A DNA stretch of 64,000 nucleotides from Bryocella elongata (GTDB lineage: Bacteria > Acidobacteriota > Terriglobia > Terriglobales > Acidobacteriaceae), in the NCBI RefSeq assembly GCF_900108185.1, contig NZ_FNVA01000002.1, positions 372,001-436,000 of the forward strand, in the 5' to 3' direction. A program made the translations under genes and the position numbers. The notes beneath the pieces were generated by a model. The model was not told the origin of the DNA. It saw only the letters and a list, made by a program, of their open reading frames with translations, and did not search any database. Within the stretch, counting starts at the first letter, position 1, and the number at the start of each line of letters is the position of its first letter. Positions 3,540 through 14,364 of the stretch are shown in pieces.

Positions 3540-3738
3540 CGGATGGACCTCTGGTCCAGGTGGAACAGGCTTAGTCTAGGCCCTAGCCCTTCCACTTTGG
3601 GGGCTCGCGGGTTGCACTTTCTGTTTGGCTGCCGTCGCAGTTCAGTTCTGGGCTGAGGATCCTGCCCCATGGCAGACCGCAGCATTTCTCCGCTGCCGGG
3701 GCTAAAGTTACCCCACTACACCCTACAGGGAAAAGGCT

Positions 3739-4206
3739 TTAGTGGGGTTGGTTTCCGGTGCTGAGGGTGACAAATAGTTCGGAGCGGATCTTCCAGCCAG
3801 CGGGCGTTTGCTGCCACATGGCCATGTACGTTCCGGTGAAGGCGGTCGATCCGTCGACTCGGCGTCCGATCCAGTGGCCGTGTTCTGCGGCGAGACCCTG
3901 TTCCGCATTGACCTCGATTTTATCGGCGACGCGCTCGTAGATGACGCGCTTGCTGCCGCTGTCGAAGTCCTGCTTGAAGAGGCCGACGTACTCCTTCTTC
4001 GAGGAGACGAAGCCGCCATCGCCGACGATTGCGACGTAGTCGTCGGCCAGGGATTCCGCGACGCCGAGGAGGTTGCGATTCACGATGGCGCGGTTGGAGT
4101 GGGTGCGGGCGCGGCGGATGGCGGCCTCGTCGTCGGGGCCGTGGTCGAGGAGGGTTGCGGCAGGGAGCAGGAGCGCGAATGCGGTGATGAGCGTGGCGGC
4201 TAGCAT
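3739..4206 (-). CDS. Exported DUF4440/NTF2-like protein
   Basis: The frame is open from 4443, but ATG at 4206 gives a clean signal peptide (LAATLITAFALLLPAATLL) and a 155-residue protein of normal size for the family, and bases upstream of it belong to a palindromic repeat. The mature part has the DUF4440/SnoaL-like pattern: an N-terminal helix with NRNLLGVAESLADDYVAIVGDGG, then a beta sheet ending in MAMWQQTPAGWKIRSELFVTL. Such proteins are alpha+beta cone folds, often of unknown ligand. No operon partner is visible; it stands alone between the kinase pair and moeZ. Confidence 0.75.
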   Translation of the reverse strand: MLAATLITAFALLLPAATLLDHGPDDEAAIRRARTHSNRAIVNRNLLGVAESLADDYVAIVGDGGFVSSKKEYVGLFKQDFDSGSKRVIYERVADKIEVNAEQGLAAEHGHWIGRRVDGSTAFTGTYMAMWQQTPAGWKIRSELFVTLSTGNQPH

Positions 4207-4236
4207 GGGTTTGTTGTAGCACCGGGCGGAGGTGAG

Positions 4237-4288
4237 CTGTAGAGGGGTGAGGTCTTCAGGACGCCGCTGCGCGGCTGGAGCGACGAGG
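4237..4288. repeat. Palindromic repeat, family C, copy 1
   Basis: CTGTAGAGGGGTGAGGTCTT, then a short GC hairpin (GCCGCTGCGCGGC), then TGGAGCGACGAGG. The same flanks around a different hairpin occur at 15185-15238, and a more distant version at 18811-18864. Confidence 0.6.
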
Positions 4289-4346
4289 TGATGGCTCGCG
4301 TTGCGCCGTCCGGAGTCGCAGCACCCCGCGGGGGCACGGCATGCCA

Positions 4347-4485
4347 GAGTAGCAGCGCCCTTCAGAGCGCGGCATCGAACAGGGAAAAAGCGATGGGCTT
4401 CAGCCCTGGATGTGGTGAAACTTCCAGGGCGAAAGCCCATCACGATGTTGGCTCTCTACCGCGCCCTGAAGGGCGCTGCTACTCC
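4347..4485. repeat. Nested inverted repeat (REP doublet/MITE-like) next to the moeZ stop codon
   Basis: Outer arms at 4351-4372 (AGCAGCGCCCTTCAGAGC...) and 4459-4480 are inverted copies with one G-T mismatch over 22 bases. Inside lies a second palindrome, GATGGGCTTCAGCCCTGGA at 4392-4410 with its complement-like arm at 4423-4441. The right outer arm touches the moeZ stop codon, so the element may also act as its 3' hairpin. Confidence 0.7.
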
Positions 4486-5708
4486 TAGTACTTGGGGAGG
4501 GACTTGTCGATGCGGTCGGCCCAGGCGGTGATGCCGCCGGCGAGGTTCTTCACGTTGGTGAAGCCCTTGGCCTTGAGGGCCAAGGCGGCGCGCTGGGAGC
4601 GGCCACCGGACTTGCACTGGGTGATGATCTCGGTGTCCTTGGGGACGGACGGTGCGGCCTGACCCGACTCGATCTGGCCGACGGGGATGAGATGGCCGCC
4701 GATCTGGACGATCTGGTACTCGTGGGGCTCGCGGACGTCGAGGAGGAAGGGAGTTTCGCCTGCGTCGAGGCGGGCCTTGTACTCTTCGACCGAGATCTGG
4801 GGGATGCCGTCGATCATGCTGTCTCCTTGCGGGGTGATGCCGTGCGAGCTGACCTCGAGGGGGCCGACGGAGGTGGGTTTTTCGATGCCGCAGAACTGGT
4901 CGTAGTCGATGAGTTCCTTGATCTCGTGGGTACCGCAGGCGGGGCACTCGGGGTTCTTGCGGAGCTTGAGCTGGCGGAAGTTCATGCCGAGGGCGTCGAC
5001 CAGGAGCAGGCGGCCGATGAGCGGCTCGCCGATGCCGAGAATGAGCTTGATGACCTCGGTGGCCTGGATGACGCCGACGAGGCCGGGGAGGATACCGAGG
5101 ACGCCGCCTTCGGCGCAGCTGGGGACGAGTCCCGGGGGCGGCGGCTCGGGGTACAGGCAACGGTAGCAGGGGCCGTCCTCGGTGGCGAAGACGGAGGCCT
5201 GGCCTTCGAAGCGGAAGATGCTGCCGTAGGCGTTGGGCTTGCCGGTGAGCACGCAGGCGTCGTTGACGAGGTAACGGGTCTGGAAGTTGTCGGTGCCGTC
5301 GGCGATGACGTCGTAGTCGGCGAAGATCTCCAGCGCATTCGCGCTGGTGAGCATGGTGTTGTGCTTGACCACGTTCACGTTCTTGTTGAGGCCCTTGAGC
5401 ATGATCTCGGCCGAGTCCACCTTGAGCTTGCCGACGGTGGACTGGGAGTGGATGATCTGGCGCTGCAGGTTGGATTCGTCGACGACGTCGAAGTCTACAA
5501 GTCCAATTGTTCCCACTCCAGCCGCTGTGAGATAGAGCGCGAGCGGGGCTCCGAGGCCGCCGGTGCCGACGCAGAGGACCTTGGCGGCTTTGAGCTTCTG
5601 CTGGCCCTCGAGGCCGACCTCCGGGAGGATGAGGTGGCGCGAGTAGCGGGCGATCTCCTCGTTGGTGAGGGCGGGGAGGGTCTTCTTCAGTTCTTCGGTG
5701 GCGATCAT
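4485..5708 (-). CDS. moeZ: MoeB/ThiF-type E1 adenylyltransferase fused to rhodanese (MoeZ-like)
   Basis: Protein of 407 residues. The E1 domain (about 1-270) has the nucleotide loop GTGGLGAP at 48-55, DESNLQRQ at 77-84, and two zinc-binding pairs CYRC (181-184) and CPAC (255-258). The C-terminal rhodanese domain (about 300-407) carries the persulfide cysteine Cys365 in CKSGGRS. This architecture adenylates the C-terminal glycine of a MoaD/ThiS/CysO carrier and then delivers sulfur to give a thiocarboxylate. The carrier gene lies 160 bases upstream on the same strand, and JAMM peptidase and CysM-like genes are within 8 kb, which points to CysO activation for cysteine synthesis, although molybdopterin or thiamine carriers could be served as well. 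Confidence 0.93.
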   Translation of the reverse strand: MIATEELKKTLPALTNEEIARYSRHLILPEVGLEGQQKLKAAKVLCVGTGGLGAPLALYLTAAGVGTIGLVDFDVVDESNLQRQIIHSQSTVGKLKVDSAEIMLKGLNKNVNVVKHNTMLTSANALEIFADYDVIADGTDNFQTRYLVNDACVLTGKPNAYGSIFRFEGQASVFATEDGPCYRCLYPEPPPPGLVPSCAEGGVLGILPGLVGVIQATEVIKLILGIGEPLIGRLLLVDALGMNFRQLKLRKNPECPACGTHEIKELIDYDQFCGIEKPTSVGPLEVSSHGITPQGDSMIDGIPQISVEEYKARLDAGETPFLLDVREPHEYQIVQIGGHLIPVGQIESGQAAPSVPKDTEIITQCKSGGRSQRAALALKAKGFTNVKNLAGGITAWADRIDKSLPKY

Positions 5709-5868
5709 GAGGTCCTTGTGGTCCGGAGCCTGGTTCGGGAGGTGTCACCCGACGTGGCGAAGGAGCCGCTGGTGTGCGCTAAGGCACGAATGCTTCCATT
5801 GGAACAGATGTCCCAGCGGAGCTGCATGGTTCAGTTGGAGAGGGAGGGCTGCGGGTTCTCGCGGTGAA

Positions 5869-6180
5869 CTAGCGACAACAACCGTCAGAGGGGCGACAAC
5901 AGCCGCCGGCGATCGAGGGGATGATGGTGAGTTCGTCGTTCTCGGAGGTGGGGGTCTCTTCCTTGGCGGGAAGGTAGCGGACATCTTCGTCGTTGAGATA
6001 GACGTTGACGAAGCTGCGCAGCTTTCCGTCCGCCGAGTAAAGGTGCTGCTGGAGGGCCGGATGGGCCGCGACCAGCGCCTTCAGCGCGCCGTCGACGGAG
6101 GCGCCGGTGACCGTGACGGTCTCCTGCTTGTCCGTGTAGGCGCGGAGCGGGGTTGGGATGTGGATCTTCATTGCCATCAT
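5869..6180 (-). CDS. CysO/MoaD-like sulfur carrier with Cys-rich C-terminal extension
   Basis: Protein of 103 residues with a ubiquitin-like beta-grasp pattern (KIHIPTPLRAYTDKQETVTV, SVDGALKALVAAHPAL, FVNVYLNDEDVRYL, ENDELTIIPSIAGG). The length of the core and the wording match CysO/MoaD. The diglycine is at 92-93, but the protein does not end there: ten residues, CCRPSDGCCR, follow. A carrier must end in Gly-Gly to be adenylated, so the tail must be removed, or the gene product works differently. Start is one of three ATGs (6180, 6177, 6171); none has a clear ribosome site. Probably co-transcribed with moeZ. Confidence 0.85.
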   Translation of the reverse strand: MMAMKIHIPTPLRAYTDKQETVTVTGASVDGALKALVAAHPALQQHLYSADGKLRSFVNVYLNDEDVRYLPAKEETPTSENDELTIIPSIAGGCCRPSDGCCR

Positions 6181-6276
6181 TGTAGAGATGCGGGAGGAAA
6201 GATTCGAGATGCGAGATTCGAGGAGCGGCCCGCGGCGTGGCGTGCGTCACGTTCCGGGAGCCCTGGCGCGTTGATA

Positions 6277-7152
6277 ATGGTTGGGTACGTGGAGGATAGC
6301 GATTTGGCCGAGATGCCGCAGGTTCCGTTGACGCTGGAAGGTTCGAGCGTTCTGCACCAGATGTTTCATTTTGACTGGACGGCTTGGAAGAAGCTCGCTG
6401 TCGAAGAGCGGGGAGCGATCGCTGCGGAGTTTGCCGCGCTGCTGGCACGCTGGGAGTCGGGCGCCAACCCGGGCGATCCTACGGTTCCGCCGAACCAGTC
6501 GGCGCTGTTCTCGATGCTGGGGCACAAGGGCGACCTGATGCTGATCCACTTTCGGGACACCTTTGAGGCGTTGAATGCTGTCGAGCTGGAGCTGGCGCAG
6601 ACTGGGATCAACGCGTTCCTGACGCAGACGACCTCCTATGTGTCGATTGTAGAGATGGGATTGTATGAGTCGACGGAGAAGATCTACGCTCCGCTGCTGG
6701 AGAAGGGTCTGCAGCCGGGCACGGTGGAGTGGGCGACGGGCATCGAGGATGGTTTGTCGCGCACGCGGGCGGCGCTGACGCCGCGGCTGTATCCGGCGAT
6801 TCCGGCGGCGAAGTACAACTGCTTTTACCCGATGGATCGCAAGCGCGGCGAGCAGGTGAACTGGTACACCGAGCCCATCAGCGACCGGCGCGTGATGATG
6901 CATGAGCACGGCATGGTGGGGCGGCGGTACGCCGAGACGGTGCGGCAGATCATTACCGGCTCGATCGGCATGGACGACTGGGAGTGGGGTGTGGACCTGT
7001 TCGCGGAGGATCCGCTGACGTTCAAGAAGCTGATCTACGAGATGCGTTTTGACAAGGTGAGCGCGGTGTACGCGAGCTTTGGGCAGTTCTTCCTGAGTGT
7101 GCGTGTGCCAGCGGCCAACGCCGGTCATTGGCTCGAAGGGAAGCTGGAGTAG
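6277..7152 (+). CDS. chdC: Coproheme decarboxylase (chlorite dismutase family)
   Basis: The frame is open upstream, but ATG at 6277 gives 291 residues; an ATG at 6313 is an alternative. Residues match the ChdC/HemQ signature: NCFYPMDRKRGEQVNWY, HEHGMVGRRYAETVRQIITG, GMDDWEWGVDLFAEDP and MRFDKVSAVYASFGQFF. ChdC oxidatively decarboxylates coproheme III to heme b, the last step of the coproporphyrin-dependent pathway. The protein is cytosolic, without signal peptide. The family's Firmicutes and actinobacterial members differ in the catalytic tyrosine; the Tyr in CFYPMD is conserved here. Monocistronic: a strong bidirectional terminator follows. No other heme gene is in the window. Confidence 0.93.
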   Translation: MVGYVEDSDLAEMPQVPLTLEGSSVLHQMFHFDWTAWKKLAVEERGAIAAEFAALLARWESGANPGDPTVPPNQSALFSMLGHKGDLMLIHFRDTFEALNAVELELAQTGINAFLTQTTSYVSIVEMGLYESTEKIYAPLLEKGLQPGTVEWATGIEDGLSRTRAALTPRLYPAIPAAKYNCFYPMDRKRGEQVNWYTEPISDRRVMMHEHGMVGRRYAETVRQIITGSIGMDDWEWGVDLFAEDPLTFKKLIYEMRFDKVSAVYASFGQFFLSVRVPAANAGHWLEGKLE

Positions 7153-7170
7153 AGGCTTCGAGACAAGAGA

Positions 7171-7207
7171 AAGAGCCGCCCGGAGGATGCCTCCGGGCGG
7201 CTTTGTT
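7171..7207. terminator. Bidirectional rho-independent terminator between chdC and the GH28 gene
   Basis: AGCCGCCCGGAGG, three-base loop, CCTCCGGGCGGCT, then TTTGTTT on the plus strand and a partial A-run on the other side. It serves both convergent genes. Confidence 0.85.
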
Positions 7208-7231
7208 TGTGGGCGTAGTTGCTGGGAGGCT

Positions 7232-8539
7232 CTAGGCGGCTGGGCCCGTCTGGGGCTTGCCGTTGACGATGACGTTCTCGAACTTGAGGTCGGTGACGCC
7301 GGAGGCGGCGAGCTGGTCCTTGTCGCAGGTGACGTCGAAGTCCTTGAGAAGGATGTTGCTGATCTCGGTCTGCCCGGGGTTGGGGCGAATGACGCCGAAG
7401 GCTGCGAAGTGGCCTTTGACGCCGGTGAGGCTGATGTTGCGGACGACCGAGTGTGGCGGAGCGGCGCCCTTGAGGTCGAAGTACTGCGACCAGGGCTGGA
7501 TGGTGAGGATCTGCGGCGCGTCGGCCTCGGAGGTGATGTTGCGGAAGTGGATGTCTTCGTAGTGCTGCGGGGTATCGGGGCGGAGCTTGAGCGTGGCGAT
7601 GCGGACGCGACCGGTGATTTTGCAGTCCTCGACGAGGACATCGCGGACGATGGTGGCTTCGCTGCCGAGGGTGAGGACGCCGCCGCCGCGCTTGTAGGTA
7701 CAGTTGCGCACGCGGATGTGCTCGACGGGAGGGCTGGTGAGGTCTTCGAGGGCGTGTGGGCCGCGGGAGCCCTTGCAGGCGATGCAGTCGTCGGTGACGG
7801 AGAAGTAGCAGCCGTCGATGGTGACGTTGCGGGAGCTGTCGAGGTCGATGCCGTCGGTGCTGGGGGCCTGCGGATAGTCGTCCGGAACCTGGAAGCGGAC
7901 GTTGTGCACGAGGACGCCGTCGCAGTGGTAGATGTGGAGGTTCCAGAACTGCGAGTCCTTGAAGGTGACGCCTTCGATCTTCACGCCATGGGAGTTTTCG
8001 ATGAGCGCAAGGCGGGCGCGGGGGATACCGATGTTGGGGAAGTTTCCGCCTTGCGGCGAGGCCTTGCGCAGCTTCCAGAAGAAGTCCCAGATGGGGCGGC
8101 CTGCGCCGTCGAGGGTACCTTCGCCGGTGAGCTGGAAGCCGTCACAGTTCTTGGCGTTGATGAGGGCGGGGGTGAACTTTTCCTCGAAGTGGCCCTCGAT
8201 GCGGGTGCGCTGGTCGGGAAAGTTCGCGGCGACATCGGTGGAGCACTGGAGCACGGCTCCGGCTTCGAGGTGCAGGTTCACTCCGGGCTTGAAGAAGATG
8301 GCTCCGGTGACGAAGGTGCCGGAGGGGACGATGACGGTGCCGCCACCGTGCGCTGCGAGATCATCGATGGCTGCCTGAATGGCCCTGGTGTTGACGGTCG
8401 AGCCGTCGGCGAGGGCTCCGTGGTCGGTGATGCTGGACTTTCGCGTGGAGGCGGCGTTCGACTTCCAGGCGGACACCAGCAGGGGGGCAGAGAGCATCCA
8501 CGACATGAAGCGGCGGCGGGGGTAGGTGGGGCTGGGCAT
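7232..8539 (-). CDS. Secreted glycoside hydrolase family 28 (polygalacturonase-like)
   Basis: ATG at 8539 follows AGAGGAG by a normal spacing and gives 435 residues; the longer frame to 8602 lacks support. The N-terminus PRRRFMSWMLSAPLLV is a likely Tat signal, so export is folded. A right-handed beta-helix is indicated by repeated short beta turns. GH28 catalytic motifs are present: STDGID, then DDCIACK with the paired aspartates, then GGGVLTLGSE in the place of the G-H-G motif, and RVRIATLK for the RIK motif. It should hydrolyse galacturonan or a related pectic chain outside the cytoplasm. The His of GHG is replaced by Gly, so activity or specificity may differ. Plant polymer use fits the organism. 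Confidence 0.88.
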   Translation of the reverse strand: MPSPTYPRRRFMSWMLSAPLLVSAWKSNAASTRKSSITDHGALADGSTVNTRAIQAAIDDLAAHGGGTVIVPSGTFVTGAIFFKPGVNLHLEAGAVLQCSTDVAANFPDQRTRIEGHFEEKFTPALINAKNCDGFQLTGEGTLDGAGRPIWDFFWKLRKASPQGGNFPNIGIPRARLALIENSHGVKIEGVTFKDSQFWNLHIYHCDGVLVHNVRFQVPDDYPQAPSTDGIDLDSSRNVTIDGCYFSVTDDCIACKGSRGPHALEDLTSPPVEHIRVRNCTYKRGGGVLTLGSEATIVRDVLVEDCKITGRVRIATLKLRPDTPQHYEDIHFRNITSEADAPQILTIQPWSQYFDLKGAAPPHSVVRNISLTGVKGHFAAFGVIRPNPGQTEISNILLKDFDVTCDKDQLAASGVTDLKFENVIVNGKPQTGPAA

Positions 8540-8675
8540 GGGCTCCTCTGGCTTCCTTGGGACTTCTCTGGATGCTCTGGACGTTTGCGTCAGAGACAGC
8601 ATCGCAGATGGGATGCCCGGGTGTCGTCGCGGTGAGGATGTTCCGTGCTTCGATATTCGGCTTGTGGTGAGCCTC

Positions 8676-10124
8676 TCAGGCGGGCTCCGCGCGTTTTATG
8701 CGGAGGTTATTGATCGCGTAGTTCAGGTACTTCGGATTGAGCGAGACGGGCTCTTCTGCGAAGTTACAGGAGCCGACGACCTGGTCGAGGACGAATCGCG
8801 GCTGGAAGGCTGCGAGGTCGAGACCCTTTTCAACCTTGATGCGATGGACGATGGCGTCGAGCATCGCTTCGTCGACCGGGATGCCGTGGGAGAGGCATTC
8901 CTTCGCGAGGATCTTCTTGAAGAGGGCGACGGAGGGCGAGCCAATCTCGATCTTGTACGGCAGGCGGCGGAGGAAGGCCGGGTCCATGAGGTCTTCGGGA
9001 TCGAGGTTGGTGGAGAAGATGACGAGCTCGTCGAAGGGGATGCTGAAGCTCTTGCCGGTGTGGAGCTTCAGGTAGTCGAGGCGGCTTTCGAGCGGCACAA
9101 TCCAACGGTTGAGGAGGTTGGCGGGGCTGACGAGCTGCCGTCCGAAGTCGTCGATGACGAAGCAGCCGCCGAGCGCCTTCATGTGCAGCGGAGCTTCGTA
9201 GAGCTTGGACGTGGGGTCGTAGCGGAGATCGAGCATCTCGAGCGTGAGCTCGCCGCCGGCGACGACGAAGGGACGCTTACAGGCGACCCAGCGGGCGTCG
9301 ACTTCCTCGCCCCGAAGGATCGAGGGCGCGCGGGTGTCGGACGCGGAGTTGGGCTTGATCGCGATGTGGACGCTGGGATCAAAGACGCGGATCGTCTGGC
9401 CCTCGACGGTGACGGCATAGGGGATGTAGACGATGTCCTTGAATACGTCGGCGAGGCGGAGCGCGAAGGTTGTTTTGCCGTTGCCGGGAGGACCATAGAG
9501 AAGGATGGCGCGGCCGGAGTTCAGGGCGGGGCCGGATTGCTCGAGCAGCTCCTCTTCGATGTTGAGGTCGCCGATGCGCTGGCGAACCAGGTCGAAGGTC
9601 ACGATCTCGTTGGTGATCTTCTGCTGGTTGACCTGCAGGTTGAACTGCTTGAGGGTTACGGGCGCGGGCCCGTTGTACTGGGACTTTTCGAGGGCATAGT
9701 TGGCGAAACGCTTTCCTTCTTCGGTGAGGTCATAGGTCATCACGGCAGAGTTGTCTGCGCGCACGCCCTTGGCGTAGAGAAGCTTGCGTTCCACCGCCAG
9801 GCGGACGAGGTCGGTGACGATGAATCCGGGGAGCTTGATGGCATCGCCGAACTCGCTGGCGGAGCGAAGGCGGAAGGCGTGGATCTGCTTGATGAGGAGC
9901 TCAGTGAGGTCCGTTTCATCGAGGCCTGTGGCTTCGATGGTCTTGGGCTCTACGGGAAACTTGGCGAGGAACGCAGCTAGGGCCTCCGGGGTGAGAGCAC
10001 CTGCGGCGACGAGGTGTTCTCCGAGGCGGCCGCCCTGGCGCACCTGCCGGTCGAGGGCCTCGTCGAGCTGCTCCGGCGTGATGAGGTTGGCCAGAACCAG
10101 CAGATTTCCAAGCTGCATTCGCAC
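8676..10124 (-). CDS. AAA+ ATPase with N-terminal MshEN-like domain, function unknown
   Basis: Protein of 482 residues, GTG at 10124 (GGAGG 10 bases upstream) or ATG at 10118. Residues 1-55 resemble the MshEN/T2SSE N-terminal domain (LGNLLVLANLITPEQLDEAL, GGRLGEHLVAAGALTPEAL), which binds c-di-GMP in some secretion ATPases. After a helical linker, an AAA core has Walker A GPPGNGKT (211-218), Walker B CFVIDDFG (321-328, Asp-Asp rather than Asp-Glu) and a sensor-like FSTN. It is not a PilB/GspE ATPase: the central domain resembles MoxR/RavA-type or gas-vesicle-like AAA proteins more. No substrate is indicated by neighbours; it sits between a GH28 gene and the JAMM gene. Confidence 0.85.
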   Translation of the reverse strand: MRMQLGNLLVLANLITPEQLDEALDRQVRQGGRLGEHLVAAGALTPEALAAFLAKFPVEPKTIEATGLDETDLTELLIKQIHAFRLRSASEFGDAIKLPGFIVTDLVRLAVERKLLYAKGVRADNSAVMTYDLTEEGKRFANYALEKSQYNGPAPVTLKQFNLQVNQQKITNEIVTFDLVRQRIGDLNIEEELLEQSGPALNSGRAILLYGPPGNGKTTFALRLADVFKDIVYIPYAVTVEGQTIRVFDPSVHIAIKPNSASDTRAPSILRGEEVDARWVACKRPFVVAGGELTLEMLDLRYDPTSKLYEAPLHMKALGGCFVIDDFGRQLVSPANLLNRWIVPLESRLDYLKLHTGKSFSIPFDELVIFSTNLDPEDLMDPAFLRRLPYKIEIGSPSVALFKKILAKECLSHGIPVDEAMLDAIVHRIKVEKGLDLAAFQPRFVLDQVVGSCNFAEEPVSLNPKYLNYAINNLRIKRAEPA

Positions 10125-10304
10125 AGCGGTACGTCCTCCGGGAAGCTCTTCGGTGAAGAGGCCGCTTTGATTCTGCCTGAAGAGGCGGGGGAGAGCCCTT
10201 CCACGAAGGCGGACGTTACTGGTGGGTGCGATCCGTGGGCGGTTGTGGCGCCTGCAATGGGAGATTGCTGGTAGAGGCTTTGGCGCGCTGCTCTCAGCGC
10301 GGAG

Positions 10305-10775
10305 TCACGCGACTTCGATGGACTGGCTGGCGAAGGTCTTGTCTTCTTCAGTGCTGCCGGTGAGGAGGAAGCTGTTGGTGATCTGCGCTGTGCCGGTGGT
10401 CTTATCACCATCGACGGAGGTGATGACGTAGGCGCAGCCGAACCAGTGGGCCTCGTTGAAGTCGGTGATGGACCACTGGGCGGGGTGGTCGGGGTGGGAG
10501 TGGTAGAAGCCGACGATGTCGAGGCCGGCGTTGCGGGCCTCGCGCTGGGCCTTGAGGAGCTCCTGCGGGGCGATGTGGTAGCGGTTGTGGGCGGAGTCGG
10601 TGCGGGTGTTGCCGGCGCGGATGAGCTGTTGGACGGAGAGGGACTCGTCTTCTCCGGTTTCGCTGTGGGCACTCGCTTTGCCGAGCATGATGCCGCAGCA
10701 CTCGTTGGGGTAGGTCTCTTCGCCGTGGGCGCGGAGCTGGTCGTAGAGGGATTGCGGGATGTGCAGGGTGCTCAT
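10305..10775 (-). CDS. JAMM/MPN+ metallopeptidase, probable CysO processing or CysO-cysteine hydrolase (Mec-like)
   Basis: Protein of 156 residues with a complete JAMM zinc site: Glu25, then His92-Ser-His94, seven residues, Ser102, two residues, Asp105. This short single-domain type includes mycobacterial Mec, which releases cysteine from CysO-cysteine, and QbsD, which trims two residues after the Gly-Gly of QbsE. In this window a carrier with residues beyond Gly-Gly, a MoeZ-like activator and a CysM-like synthase lie nearby, so both roles (tail trimming and cysteine release) are reasonable; this is inference. A strong hairpin separates it from the toxin-antitoxin genes upstream. Confidence 0.9.
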   Translation of the reverse strand: MSTLHIPQSLYDQLRAHGEETYPNECCGIMLGKASAHSETGEDESLSVQQLIRAGNTRTDSAHNRYHIAPQELLKAQREARNAGLDIVGFYHSHPDHPAQWSITDFNEAHWFGCAYVITSVDGDKTTGTAQITNSFLLTGSTEEDKTFASQSIEVA

Positions 10776-10868
10776 GGCAGGTCTCGGGGTATCTCACCGG
10801 TTGCGGAAGCCTTGAATTCGGGGATCCTTCGGTAGTGCCTCAGTTTGAAATTCGCTAGGGTCGGTGTA

Positions 10869-10906
10869 GAAACGAGAGGCCCGCTGCTATAGCGGGCCTC
10901 TCGTTT
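10869..10906. terminator. Terminator downstream of the toxin-antitoxin pair
   Basis: A nearly perfect palindrome, AAACGAGAGGCCCGCT with loop GCTAT and AGCGGGCCTCTCGTTT, with T-run on either strand. It isolates the toxin-antitoxin unit from the JAMM gene. Confidence 0.8.
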
Positions 10907-10927
10907 GAGCGGTTGTCCTTCTTTAAT

Positions 10928-11416
10928 CTAGATTGTTTGGACTTCCATTGTGTCCATGTCAACTCGCATTTGCTCGGGACGATACTCGTCTACGAGCCAT
11001 TCGAAGGATTGCACGCCCTCTTCGGTGCGTTCTTTCAATCCGTCGCCTAACGCCAAAACTACAGATCGGATGAGGCGTTCACTTTGTGGTCCGATCTTCT
11101 GCTTGCCATTTTCCCAATTGGATAGTGTGCTTCTATCGGTAGCGATCAGCTTAGCGAACTCAGTCGCACTCATTTTGAGGTATTTCCGTAGAAATCTAAC
11201 CTCCTCGCCGTTCAGACGATATTTGCGCGTGGCGATATGCCACGCAAGTGCGGCCATTAGGTCATTGACGTTCGGAATCACGGGATCGGTATTCCCGCAC
11301 TCTTTGCACGTCAACAGCTCAATTCCTGTGAGCGTGACGTTATTCAGCCCACTCTCACGAAACTGATATACCCCTTGTGTGGTGGCAGATTCAGAACCGC
11401 AATTGCTGCAGTCCAC
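10928..11416 (-). CDS. MqsA/HigA-type antitoxin: zinc finger plus HTH
   Basis: Protein of 162 residues, GTG start at 11416 preceded by GAGGAGGAG. Cys3-Cys6 and Cys37-Cys40 form a YgiT-type zinc ribbon as in MqsA antitoxins. Residues about 60-115 are an XRE HTH (EEVRFLRKYLKMSATEFAKLI, DRSTLSNWENGKQKI). The C-terminal tail is acidic. The partner gene ends 18 bases upstream, giving the toxin-first order known for MqsRA and HigBA. Base composition is visibly lower in GC than nearby genes, pointing to horizontal gain. It should neutralise the toxin and repress the shared promoter. Confidence 0.85.
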   Translation of the reverse strand: MDCSNCGSESATTQGVYQFRESGLNNVTLTGIELLTCKECGNTDPVIPNVNDLMAALAWHIATRKYRLNGEEVRFLRKYLKMSATEFAKLIATDRSTLSNWENGKQKIGPQSERLIRSVVLALGDGLKERTEEGVQSFEWLVDEYRPEQMRVDMDTMEVQTI

Positions 11417-11434
11417 GTGTCCTCCTCCTCCTCG

Positions 11435-11767
11435 TTATTCGTCCCTTGCCTTCGCTGCTACGGAGAAAACCGTAATGAGGAAAGCCCGGGAAACACTCTT
11501 AAAACTGAAGACAATGACGAGGTACTTGCCTCCAGGCTCATGTCCCTCGACCCGATACTTCCATTCACCTGTTTTGATGTCTGGTTCTGGTGGATCGAGT
11601 ACTCTTCCTGATTTCAGAACGACCCATGCATCCTCAAAGGTAAGGTCTTCCTGCAATAGTTCGTCCCTGAAATGGCGACCCGGGACGATTTCACCGCCTC
11701 CTTGAAGACAAAACCGGAGGAGGTCTTGCGCCTCTAGTACGGTGTTAACTATCGTCCGTCTCTCCAT
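11435..11767 (-). CDS. DUF4258 toxin (RelE/MqsR-like fold)
   Basis: A frame is open to a TTG at 11803, but that codon lies in a -35 box; ATG at 11767 gives 110 residues. The sequence follows DUF4258: RHFRDELLQEDLTFEDAW, VLKSGRVLDPPEPD, WKYRVEGHEPGGKYLVIVFSF, FLITVFSV. Such proteins pair with zinc finger-HTH antitoxins, and many are mRNA interferases, though the family is little studied. The promoter predicts transcription starting only two or three bases before this ATG, so the toxin would be read from a leaderless message, while the antitoxin has a strong ribosome site. That would favour antitoxin excess. Confidence 0.8.
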   Translation of the reverse strand: MERRTIVNTVLEAQDLLRFCLQGGGEIVPGRHFRDELLQEDLTFEDAWVVLKSGRVLDPPEPDIKTGEWKYRVEGHEPGGKYLVIVFSFKSVSRAFLITVFSVAAKARDE

Positions 11768-11775
11768 AATGTGAC

Positions 11776-11803
11776 ATTTTACCAACGTGTGGTCTTTTGT
11801 CAA
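11776..11803 (-). promoter_or_regulatory. Sigma-70 promoter of the toxin-antitoxin unit
   Basis: On the minus strand TTGACA (11798-11803), 16 bases, TAAAAT (11776-11781). The expected start of transcription is near 11769, right at the toxin ATG (11767). Confidence 0.7.
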
Positions 11804-11943
11804 CTAAAGTTGTAGAGGAGATCGTCCCGTATCGGACCTCACCCTTGCTTTCGCTTGTAAGGGCCACGCTTCTTGGCGACTGGCTCTGGCAGGAGCGCGA
11901 TCAGCTCTTCGACCGACCAGACGTGCCCGGAGAGTCCAGCCGA

Positions 11944-11969
11944 TCCTTCGCCTTCGGCTCAGGATGACG
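11944..11969. repeat. Palindromic repeat, family B, copy 1
   Basis: TCCTTCGCCTTCGGCTCAGGATGACG: a short hairpin with the tail AGGATGAC. Related copies: 15247-15285, 27152-27184, 38354-38385, 39845-39899, 54521-54557. Confidence 0.55.
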
Positions 11970-11982
11970 GCAAAGAACGGGG

Positions 11983-13032
11983 CTATCGGGCGGTCCCCAG
12001 CTTGGCTTCCAAGTCCTTGTCCGCGGCGATGGTTTCCTGCCAGAAGTGTTCGCTGAGGTACTTGTCGGCGGAGTCGCAGAGGATGGTGACGATGACGGCG
12101 TCGCGGCCGGCGGCGGCTTCTTCTTCGGCGACCTGGAGGGCAGCGGCGCAGGCTGCGGCGGCGGAGATGCCGACGAGCAGGCCGGCGTTGCGGCCGAGCC
12201 ACTTGGCCATGGCGTAGGCGCGCTCGGTGGCCATGGGGAGGTCGCGGTCGGCGAGCTTGTCGTCGTAGATGGGCGGGACGATGGCCGTTTCCATGTGCTT
12301 GAGGCCCTCGAGGCCGTGGAAGGGCGAGTCGGGCTGCATGGAGATGCACTGGATGGCGGGGTTGAACTCGCGCAGGCGGCGGGTGGTGCCCATGAAGGTG
12401 CCGGAGGTGCCGAGCGACGCGACGAAGTGGGTGATGGCGCCTTCGGTCTGCTGCCATATCTCGGGTGCGGTGGTGCGGTAGTGGGCGAGCCAGTTGTTGT
12501 CGTTGCCGTACTGGTCGGCGTAGAAGTAGCGCTCGGGGTCGGCGGTTGCGAGTTCGCGGGCTTTGCGGATGGCTCCGTCTGAGCCGTCGGCAGGGTCGGT
12601 CCAGACGATCTCGGCGCCGTAGGCCTTGAGGATGCGCTTGCGCTCGGGTGAGACGTTGGAGGGCATGCAGAGGTGCACGGGGAAGCCGAGCGCTGCGCCG
12701 AGCATGGCATAGGCGATGCCGGTGTTGCCGCTGGTGGCGTCGAGGAGGATTTTTTGATTGCTGGCCGCGCCTGGCGTGAGTTTGCCTTCGGCGATGGCGG
12801 CTCGAATGATCGAAGAGGCGGCGCGGTCCTTGACGGAGCCACCGGGGTTGGCCCACTCCGCCTTGCCATAGATGTGGATGTTCACGCCGTACTGCGCGTT
12901 GAGGCGGGCTGTGAGGGCGTCGAGCTGGAGGAGCGGGGTGTTGCCGATGCGGTCGAGGAGTCCCACGCCGAGGGGGTTGGTTGTCGAAGGGGCGGTGCTG
13001 ATCATCGGTGTGTCTGTCATCGCGGAGGCCAT
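11983..13032 (-). CDS. cysM: PLP-dependent cysteine synthase, CysM-like (probable CysO-thiocarboxylate user)
   Basis: Protein of 349 residues, fold type II PLP enzyme. Lys68 in NPGGSVKDRAA binds PLP; the substrate loop SGNTGIAYA and the phosphate loop GTSGTFMG are present. It makes cysteine from an activated serine and a sulfur donor. A classical CysK uses O-acetylserine and sulfide; CysM of actinobacteria uses O-phosphoserine and thiocarboxylated CysO. The longer C-terminal segment (EEEAAAGRDAVIVTILCDSADKY) is more CysM-like, and the nearby CysO-like carrier, MoeZ and JAMM genes support the CysO route. Upstream bases hold family A repeats. The reaction is cytosolic. Confidence 0.88.
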   Translation of the reverse strand: MASAMTDTPMISTAPSTTNPLGVGLLDRIGNTPLLQLDALTARLNAQYGVNIHIYGKAEWANPGGSVKDRAASSIIRAAIAEGKLTPGAASNQKILLDATSGNTGIAYAMLGAALGFPVHLCMPSNVSPERKRILKAYGAEIVWTDPADGSDGAIRKARELATADPERYFYADQYGNDNNWLAHYRTTAPEIWQQTEGAITHFVASLGTSGTFMGTTRRLREFNPAIQCISMQPDSPFHGLEGLKHMETAIVPPIYDDKLADRDLPMATERAYAMAKWLGRNAGLLVGISAAAACAAALQVAEEEAAAGRDAVIVTILCDSADKYLSEHFWQETIAADKDLEAKLGTAR

Positions 13033-13086
13033 GTTGTCTCTTGGATGATCTTATGGGCGGCGAAGGAGCGGGTTGCTGGTCGCAGA

Positions 13087-13120
13087 AACCCACATCTCAA
13101 AGGCGAGATGTGGGGCACCC
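13087..13120. repeat. Palindromic repeat, family A, copy 1
   Basis: CCCACATCTC and GAGATGTGGG pair perfectly over 10 bases around a six-base loop, followed by GCACCC. One of nine related copies in the window. Confidence 0.8.
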
Positions 13121-13154
13121 TGTTCCTGGGGAACCTTGGAGACTCGTGGTGACT

Positions 13155-13188
13155 TAGCCCGGGTCGAGAGTCCGGACCCGGGGCACCC
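13155..13188. repeat. Palindromic repeat, family A, copy 2
   Basis: TAGCCCGGGTC, loop, GACCCGGGGCACCC. The stem is different from copy 1 but the pairing and the tail are kept. It lies between cysM and the DinB-like gene, 35 bases from copy 1. Confidence 0.8.
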
Positions 13189-13202
13189 TGATGGTGGAGG
13201 CC

Positions 13203-13667
13203 CTAGGCGGCGGCGGGCATCTCGGGCTCGATGCCCATGAGCTTGAGGTGGTGGGCGAGGTGCTTCACGTAATCCTTGGCGAGGTGCTCGAGGGTGGTGG
13301 GCATCTCCGCGCCGATCTTGCAGACGGTCTGGAGTTTGGCCTCGGGGATGTGGGCGATGACGTGGGCCAGGAGGCGGTTGTAGGCGAGGAAGAGGTCGAC
13401 GAGCATGGCCCAGCTGGCGGTCTGGAACTGCTGGACGCGGATGTTGCCGTTCTGGTCGTAGCCGGGGAAGTTGAGCTCGCGCTGGAGGCTGGCGCGGACG
13501 ATGCGCTGGTGGTTGTTGGAGGCCGAATCGATGAGGTGGCCGAGGAGCTGGCGTCGGCTCCATCCGCCGGCACGGACGGGAGACGTGGTGGTGGAGTCGT
13601 CGACCTGGGCGAGCTGCGGAGCGGCGGCCTCGATGAGGGAGAGAAGCTTGCGGCTAAGGGAGTGCAT
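13203..13667 (-). CDS. DinB/YfiT-like protein
   Basis: ATG at 13667 has GGAGG eight bases upstream and gives 154 residues, the usual size; the frame to 13754 is not needed. The four-helix bundle family is recognised by LLGHLIDSASNNHQRIVRA near residue 45 and the C-terminal HLAHHLKLMG, whose histidines would bind a metal. Members are thiol-dependent S-transferases (bacillithiol, mycothiol) or of unknown activity. No substrate can be inferred here. Single gene. Confidence 0.85.
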   Translation of the reverse strand: MHSLSRKLLSLIEAAAPQLAQVDDSTTTSPVRAGGWSRRQLLGHLIDSASNNHQRIVRASLQRELNFPGYDQNGNIRVQQFQTASWAMLVDLFLAYNRLLAHVIAHIPEAKLQTVCKIGAEMPTTLEHLAKDYVKHLAHHLKLMGIEPEMPAAA

Positions 13668-13944
13668 CGGTACATCCTCCGGGGCAATTTCGCGGCTGCG
13701 GCGGCTTCCGAAAAAGGAGTGTCGTGACGTTTTCTTTGAGGGAAAACGCCTCATGCCAGTCCTTCCCCGGCTCTACCTACAGCAGGAAATGCTTGTGGGT
13801 CGGGCAAAAAGGGCGACTCTGGAGTGCCCCGCGCCGGGATTGGAGCATTGAAGCGCGGTGCCTGGATGTGCGAAAGTTGGGTTAGAGTCTCACGCGGAAA
13901 TGGCGTTGTAAAGCCTGCTTCGCGAAAACGAAGGTCTGGATACG

Positions 13945-14364
13945 ATGCCAAGAACCGTAACGGTTCCAAGTTTTGACGAAGTGCTCTCGCGCCTCGGCGA
14001 TGAGAAATTTGACGTTTCACCAGCCACAGAAGGTGCAAATCGTGTGGCCGGTGCTCGCCGGGTGAGCAAATATGGCTGCGCGGCAGAGATTGCGCCGAGC
14101 GACGTGAAGGATGCGCCGGTGCGCTTGCTGGCGCGTTCGGGCTGGGTGCTGGCGGGGGAGATCTCTCGCCTGACGGACCGGGGATACCAGAAGTTCTTCA
14201 AGACCTCGAAGTTAGAGGTTCCGGCGACGGCGGATGCGCTGACAGCGCTGCACAAGTTCGATGAAGAGCTGAAGAACGCGATCGGCGCGCAAGAGCTTTA
14301 TAACGAAGCGATGGGCACGACGAGCGACAAGTACATCTATGACCGGCTGAAGGGGCGGGCGTAG
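13945..14364 (+). CDS. Conserved-looking hypothetical protein (139 aa)
   Basis: Starts ATG at 13945 and ends before a signal-peptide protein on the same strand. The sequence (VPSFDEVLSRLGDEKFDVSP, SKYGCAAEIAPSDVKDAP, WVLAGEISRLTDRGYQKFF, LHKFDEELKNAIG, YNEAMGTTSDKYIYDRL) is globular, charged and without transmembrane segments. I do not recognise the family. Its codon use is like its neighbours. The downstream exported protein begins 80 bases after the stop, so co-transcription is possible. Confidence 0.75.
   Translation: MPRTVTVPSFDEVLSRLGDEKFDVSPATEGANRVAGARRVSKYGCAAEIAPSDVKDAPVRLLARSGWVLAGEISRLTDRGYQKFFKTSKLEVPATADALTALHKFDEELKNAIGAQELYNEAMGTTSDKYIYDRLKGRA

Follow-up and report, generated by a model that had tools for sequence, protein, structure and literature searches.

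Sulfur carriers of Acidobacteriota as probable processed precursors, with tandem UGU cysteine codons in the tail as a putative codon-level signal

In a 64,000-nucleotide stretch of the genome of the soil bacterium Bryocella elongata (contig NZ_FNVA01000002.1, positions 372,001 to 436,000; hereafter the window), we analyzed a set of genes for a CysO-type cysteine pathway, in which the sulfur carrier continues past its diglycine into a cysteine-rich tail. Comparison with related loci gives good support to the view that the sulfur carrier of Acidobacteriota is a processed precursor, like ubiquitin. The tails of these carriers contain runs of tandem in-frame cysteine (Cys) codons, nearly always UGU. 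Judging from the sequence patterns described below, such a run would act as a signal at the level of codons, and most likely it marks the end of a structural gene as a site where ribosomes stall in dependence on Cys-tRNA. More tentatively, the propeptide may at the same time be an attenuator leader peptide, with rare UGU codons in tandem ahead of the stop as a cysteine sensor that has been gained and lost repeatedly.

The carrier gene was confirmed at positions 5869-6180, on the minus strand, where an earlier note on this DNA had placed it. Its product ends in ...IIPSIAGG, with the diglycine at residues 92 and 93, followed by CCRPSDGCCR and the stop. The best match of the carrier in the PDB is chain C of 3dwg, which we take to be CysO of Mycobacterium tuberculosis (entered in the PDB file as 9.5 kDa culture filtrate antigen cfp10A). 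Query residues 4-93 align to residues 3-93 of the 93 in this chain, and therefore the 3dwg_C protein stops at Gly-Gly.

To describe the tail among relatives, we used the best 80 of 570 related loci, taken from genome contigs (the 80-locus set). Residues beyond Gly-Gly are present in all 80 carriers: five are fusions with MoeZ, and 75 have tails that range from 1 to 27 residues, 63 of them containing Cys. The tail envisaged in the earlier note is thus general in this set as a feature, with no carrier ending at Gly-Gly, and a peptide of the CCRPSDGCCR type is not conserved. One homologue (P0003), 96% identical to the carrier, ends in CCRLSDGCCR, and this protein together with the 80 loci rules out a sequencing frameshift as the source of the tail. 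The expected co-occurrence with the JAMM and cysM genes was also borne out, the full order cysM-JAMM-carrier-moeZ being found on a single strand in 75 loci; among the other five, three lie near a contig end, one has its JAMM gene on another contig, and one is without moeZ. A same-strand JAMM gene stands upstream of the carrier in 78 of the 80 loci, and in 68 the JAMM match ends no more than 700 nucleotides (nt) from the Gly-Gly codons. Twenty further loci, mostly more distant, comprised 14 tailed carriers, 4 fusions, and 2 carriers ending at Gly-Gly.

The fusions provide a further argument for processing. In a survey of 198 Acidobacteriota genomes, a fused query found matches in 104 (E <= 1e-60), and 40 of these 104 (counted from the listing) have one stop-free frame that spans the query from residue 1-3 to residue 479-482. 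We read through 29 fused loci, namely 20 of those 40 and nine found earlier. In-frame fusions of carrier and MoeZ are spread over many families of Acidobacteriota, and the fused state requires at least 11 changes on a FastTree phylogeny of 110 MoeZ rows. The 29 loci yield 28 distinct linkers, the junctions of L067 (Granulicella rosea) and L167 being identical, and among the 554 linker residues there is no Cys. A JAMM gene lies directly upstream of the fusion in 24 of the 29 loci; three of the remaining five have less than 1 kb of upstream sequence, and two (L163 and L178) are JAMM-free across about 1.5 kb. Since carrier and MoeZ share one frame, Gly-Gly must be freed by a protease for the carrier to work, and the position of such fusions beside a JAMM gene makes trimming of the tail by the neighboring JAMM protein much better supported.

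The window JAMM gene is the sole Prok-JAB (PF14464) match of its own genome, a count made with this one model. At least one Prok-JAB match was found in 58 of 61 genomes (its own and 60 relatives), and among the 42 good-quality genomes none is without a match. From this genomic context, the neighboring JAMM protein very probably cuts after Gly93 and thereby removes the tail. The earlier note had the JAMM protein trim the tail and later release cysteine, and it is the trimming half that gains, by inference, from the fusions beside JAMM genes and from the single Prok-JAB match. As to release, Mec hydrolyses the CysO-cysteine adduct (PMC3227635), and since we take the Gly-Gly-Cys bond to be the same as in this adduct, one JAMM enzyme could do both jobs. 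In our searches of the open literature on CysO and JAMM carriers, diglycine extensions, MoaD-MoeZ fusions, and Acidobacteria, we did not find these near-universal tails, the widespread carrier-MoeZ fusion, or the tandem-UGU signature described.

Codon usage in the tails was counted in 105 unfused junctions (L001-L111, with the duplicate L031 and five fused loci omitted), reduced to 80 representatives that are less than 90% identical in the 250 nt leading up to the tail; the counts do not extend to L112-L131, and the p values and ratios are uncorrected for relatedness. Cys accounts for 160 of the 638 tail codons in the representatives, while TGY makes up 2.5% of the trinucleotides in the gap between the carrier stop and moeZ. 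The tail Cys codons are divided 129 TGT to 31 TGC. In the same loci the Cys codons of moeZ are divided 31 to 613 and the gap trinucleotides 80 to 130, and the other twofold codons of the tails end 29 times in T and 55 times in C. The preference resides in the tandem runs (107 TGT, 9 TGC), with isolated tail Cys codons being evenly split (22 and 22). Within tails, TGTTGT occurs 57 times in frame 0 and never in frames 1 and 2, and it occurs once in 8647 nt of gap sequence. The window follows the same pattern: the tail has four Cys codons, each of them TGT, and the 16 Cys codons in moeZ (9), JAMM (3), and cysM (4) are without exception TGC.

In 69 loci, 29 of 2946 long stop-to-stop frames contain an in-frame TGTTGT within the last 12 codons, and 27 of these 29 are the carrier; the upstream region of cysM (450 nt), read in 42 loci, is free of TGTTGT. 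A Cys-Cys-Arg-stop pattern has 21 matches in the B. elongata genome versus 13 for a control, and among the 20 readable matches only that of the carrier closes a long frame (125 codons; the other in-frame cases have at most 56). Tandem in-frame Cys codons upstream of a gene of the cysteine pathway, one of the traits of polycysteine attenuators, are present. Because frame, amino acid, and codon are kept and the surrounding peptide is not, decoding by the ribosome fits better than either a metal site, to which codon choice is irrelevant, or a pure nucleic-acid motif, to which frame is irrelevant.

Among the alternatives, the one that survives best is an ordinary propeptide, in which the tail does no more than cap Gly-Gly until the JAMM enzyme cuts. 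The Cys content would then follow from a preference of the enzyme for a small residue directly past Gly-Gly, for example Cys, as in the CysO-Cys bond, and the codon pattern would be incidental. We regard the ordinary propeptide as a real possibility, though short of probable. In its favor, Cys is the first residue in 31 of the 75 unfused tails of the 80-locus set, isolated Cys codons immediately past Gly-Gly lack a UGU preference (6 TGT, 14 TGC), and 26 of the 29 fused linkers, which are presumably cut as well, start with Ala, Ser, or Thr. The UGU bias of the tandem codons is left unexplained, however, and the Cys-Cys pair in the ECCG motif of the JAMM gene from the same operon is mostly UGC-UGC (TGCTGC 52, TGTTGC 13, TGCTGT 1, TGTTGT 1). 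Moreover, single-run tails have their run near the stop, not near the cut site. A Cys-Cys run (CC) is present in 37 of the 80 representative tails; in 34 of these 37 no more than four codons separate the end of the last run from the stop. The distance of the last run from Gly-Gly, by contrast, varies from 0 to 22, and in the 14 long tails with a single run the run lies nearer to the stop than under random placement (p 0.006).

A second alternative, which we consider unlikely, places the function in the RNA: a hairpin at the stop codon would stabilize or process the carrier-moeZ mRNA, and UGU would be needed for pairing. Strong hairpins do occur in a part of the Granulicella-type relatives, and the predicted folding is better around the carrier stop (mean z -0.36 for 80 windows) than around control stops (+0.18 for 180; p 6e-5), with a mean z of -0.66 in the CC tails (n = 37). 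Yet only 15 of the 37 CC loci have z < -1, and four loci (L057, L082, L096, and L106) keep their UGU runs at -1.0 to -5.2 kcal/mol with positive z. The absence of out-of-frame TGTTGT from tails also argues against an RNA element, as does the hairpin itself, which is limited to a part of the relatives and shows no visible covariation because its arms are nearly invariant. As a separate candidate, the stop-codon palindrome was rejected as a repeated genomic element, having one match in its own genome, as does its backwards control; the two arm motifs, at up to 2 mismatches, are not rare in the window, with 54 matches (19 expected) and 12 matches (14 expected).

The earlier note had proposed that the four cysteines could gate activation by metal or redox state, turning the tail into a sensor. 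At the protein level, Cys pairs would then bind zinc or form disulfides and so gate the JAMM cut. The window tail does contain two CC pairs, and CC recurs in the relatives at the frequency given above, but tails differ freely in how many Cys they have, how these are spaced, and whether any is present, the 29 fused linkers are Cys-free, and a metal site would be indifferent to codon choice. The proposal fared poorly and appears to us very improbable; if a sensor exists here, Cys-tRNA at the ribosome is a likelier input for it than zinc or the redox state. Slippage of (TGT)n repeats, building runs without selection, is scarcely credible, since runs of three (12 of 50) and four (2 of 50) units do occur but 36 of 50 have only two units, and TGC-TGC is seen once against 31 TGT-TGT despite equal isolated TGC and TGT.

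The proposed mechanism, with the UGU run as a stall site, has four steps. In the first, which we hold with considerable confidence, the neighboring JAMM protein would cut after Gly93 and remove the tail. In the second, MoeZ would adenylate and thiolate the freed Gly-Gly, CysM would add activated serine, and the JAMM protein would release cysteine, a sequence of events that is established for M. tuberculosis and predicted for this genome. The third step is seen in the sequences themselves: the discarded tail is nearly free in its amino-acid sequence, yet tandem Cys codons recur in it, always in frame, mostly near the stop, and almost always UGU in genes that otherwise use UGC. In the fourth step, a conjecture that is perhaps right, the UGU run would stall the ribosome according to the supply of Cys-tRNA and thereby adjust expression at the carrier-moeZ junction; a first guess for the route from stall to moeZ is the shielding of a C-rich Rho-type site. 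The chain as a whole, with the last step taken broadly so that any codon-level role of the UGU run would count, stands in our judgment at an even balance. If the UGU run is a stall site, codon choice in the closing part of a structural gene would serve as an amino-acid sensor, and such a sensor would have been made possible by a protease that discards the encoded tail. For the JAMM enzyme, the carrier-MoeZ fusions and the near-universal tails offer a clear biochemical test.

Several properties of the gap and of the run bear on the last step. The C-over-G skew after the stop is 0.128 in CC loci versus 0.037 in others (p 5e-4). None of the six separate-gene tails with a moeZ motif less than 100 nt away contains CC, and Cys number rises weakly with distance to moeZ (Spearman 0.34, p 0.003, n 73). 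The presence of a run changes at least 14 times on the MoeZ tree, counting separate genes only, so that the run has repeatedly arisen or been lost and is not one inherited block. A programmed frameshift into moeZ was rejected, the moeZ frame being open back to the tail in just 7 of 73 cases. For the gap hairpin (7 sequences), 90.5% of cells are paired and three of six pairs are changed on both sides; in 500 shuffles its covariation score was reached 13 times and its number of both-side-changed pairs 79 times. An Rfam search of window positions 4000-14000 and 11 relatives' loci gave no match at the gathering score and four weak matches with E > 0.3. Positions 5600-6400, scanned for promoters and terminators, gave a single terminator-like site, which lies on the opposite strand, and no promoter.

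A number of observations weigh against the proposed chain. Folding predictions for 60 junctions show no opening of the start region of moeZ when the tail is occupied by a ribosome (p 0.57), and terminator-like sites in the gap were found in none of 33 CC loci and one of 34 other loci. With both start-region unmasking and terminators unsupported, the way from stall to moeZ is offered as a hypothesis. After the stop of the JAMM gene, which has no such run, the C-over-G skew is 0.106. The first run of long tails shows no leaning toward the stop (mean 5.2 codons to the stop, 5.0 to Gly-Gly), and 13 of the 80 representative tails lack Cys. Locus L048 keeps its Cys runs with moeZ about 2.3 kb away, and L102 has a Cys-containing tail with no moeZ match within 10 kb downstream. 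When fused loci were set against loci with Cys tails in phylogenetic pairs, the pairs were too few (six on supported branches, median p 0.25), and the MoeZ tree is a FastTree phylogeny with 38 of 106 branches starred. Finally, the two carriers noted above that stop exactly at Gly-Gly (L121 and L130) do so despite Prok-JAB genes being present; that of L130 may be a second carrier type.

This second type was sampled from the lower-scoring carrier matches, and all 20 of those taken have a tail, with 12 TGC and 3 TGT among the Cys codons (counted by eye). In B. elongata itself a second carrier is found at locus L152, where a plus-strand PALP-family gene (3558-4856), threonine-synthase-like by eye, is overlapped at its end by a ThiS-family carrier gene (4853-5134, plus strand) whose product ends in ...PSIAGG followed by VL; relatives of this carrier have tails such as CCADGE. 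Possibly it serves another sulfur amino acid and is processed by the same single JAMM protein.

Two further features of the tails were observed. Some of them (P0033, P0070, and P0093) include a second copy of PSIAGG, resembling a duplicated carrier end. The long tails of L041, L050, L065, L066, L082, and L094 are TGRPGVGASR-like and resemble the translation of a G+C-rich intergenic repeat that is found just past the stop in other species, as in L072 and L075 (both by eye).

The features discussed are collected in the table.

Features of the cysteine-pathway locus in the window, and the fused loci used for comparison
Feature	Position or loci	Strand	Remarks
CysO/MoaD-like carrier precursor, 103 residues, internal Gly92-Gly93	5869..6180	-	Pfam ThiS (E 6.9e-11); best solved relative 3dwg_C
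C-terminal tail CCRPSDGCCR	5872..5901	-	Cys codons 5896-5901 and 5875-5880, 4/4 TGT
Possible stop-codon hairpin	5855..5879	-	GTTGTCGC (Cys-Cys-Arg codons) / GCGAGAAC, one G:G mismatch
Gap from carrier stop to moeZ start, 160 nt	5709..5868	-	First 70 nt C-rich (0.41), G-poor (0.19)
Second possible hairpin, in gap before moeZ	5791..5824	-	Loop ATCT; modest support
MoeZ-like E1 adenylyltransferase with rhodanese domain	4485..5708	-	Pfam ThiF and Rhodanese
JAMM/Prok-JAB metallopeptidase, presumed tail-trimming and CysO-cysteine-releasing	10305..10775	-	Pfam Prok-JAB
CysM-like PLP (pyridoxal phosphate) cysteine synthase	11983..13032	-	Pfam PALP
Carrier-MoeZ fusions read through	L067, L090, L105, L110, L111, L123, L124, L127, L129, L162-L181		

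The sequence motifs of the window proteins agree with these assignments. The JAMM motifs (Glu and the HxH...S..D kind) are present as HSHPDHPAQWSITD from residue 92 together with ECCG, the rhodanese motif CKSGGRS was found in the MoeZ-like protein, and the PLP-synthase motif NPGGSVKDR was found in the CysM-like protein. The MoeZ-like protein scores under the NCBIfam MoeZ cut-off (496 vs 647 bits); for the synthase, cysM is the best NCBIfam model, yet its score is also under the cut-off (327 vs 394 bits). A CysO-type cysteine pathway is supported by this gene set, while the use of O-phosphoserine and carrier thiocarboxylate by the synthase is putative, as judged from PLP fold and motifs only. 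The genome has two more full-length CysK/CysM-like genes elsewhere (42% and 40% identical), and therefore the CysO route need not be its sole route to cysteine.

The description in the earlier note of a complete pathway within 8 kb on one strand is accurate as to content, all four genes being present, but unrelated genes break up the cluster, namely a chlorite-dismutase-family gene on the plus strand and a GH28 gene, as well as an AAA/MshEN-motif ATPase and an MqsA-like/DUF4258 pair. This last pair, at 10928-11803 on the minus strand between the JAMM and CysM genes, consists of an MqsA-like helix-turn-helix protein and a DUF4258-like protein that scores below the cut-off of the DUF4258 model, and it is toxin-antitoxin-like. 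A long palindrome, REP-like (repetitive extragenic palindrome) or MITE-like (miniature inverted-repeat transposable element) by eye, lies at about 4338-4484, directly past the moeZ stop.

Carriers with a short tail that is removed by a JAMM protein are known from the QbsE/QbsD and HcyS/HcyD systems, which have in common with the window carrier the residues past Gly-Gly and a nearby JAMM gene. Unlike QbsE and HcyS, the tails described here are longer and variable, contain tandem UGU codons, and belong to a cysteine pathway. The CysO-CysM-Mec-MoeZ system of M. tuberculosis (PMC3227635; PDB 3dwg) has the same components, i.e. carrier, E1-rhodanese, JAMM protein, and CysM-type synthase; CysO of M. 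tuberculosis, however, ends at Gly-Gly, whereas the window carrier would first need its tail removed, and the substrate of CysM is putative here. The same four genes (ThiS/MoaD, E1-rhodanese, JAB, and cysteine synthase) make up operon type 4c, a row of the first table (Table 1) in Iyer, Burroughs and Aravind 2006 that lists an acidobacterium (PMC1779556), and thus the operon type as such is already known. A role of JAB in releasing ThiS/MoaD domains from fusion proteins is suggested in the same paper, which also reports fusions of Ub-like domains to the ThiF N-terminus (PMC1779556); neither a tail past Gly-Gly nor a carrier-MoeZ fusion in operon 4c is described in the accessible text of that paper. 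In Deinococcus, DRJAMM frees the C-terminal Gly of the sulfur carrier from its fused partner in a MoaD-MoaE fusion (PMC8832034), the partner being MoaE there and the E1-rhodanese MoeZ in the fusions of Acidobacteriota.

For the UGU run, the closest parallel is in the polycysteine leader open reading frames of mycobacteria (Canestrari 2020), which are cysteine-responsive attenuators regulating downstream genes (PMC9031893, PMC13236596). Contiguous Cys codons are common to these leaders and to the tails described here. The opening of a start region by a stalled ribosome, a trait of attenuators, is not predicted here by the foldings of the 60 junctions, and the mycobacterial attenuator is a separate short reading frame, whereas here the run sits at the end of the carrier gene itself. 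Synonymous codons within a structural gene have been reported as a serine sensor in SinR of Bacillus (PMC3862929). It is from the polycysteine leaders, the serine-sensing codons of SinR, and the kept frame and codon of the UGU runs that a stall site is proposed for the carriers of Acidobacteriota.

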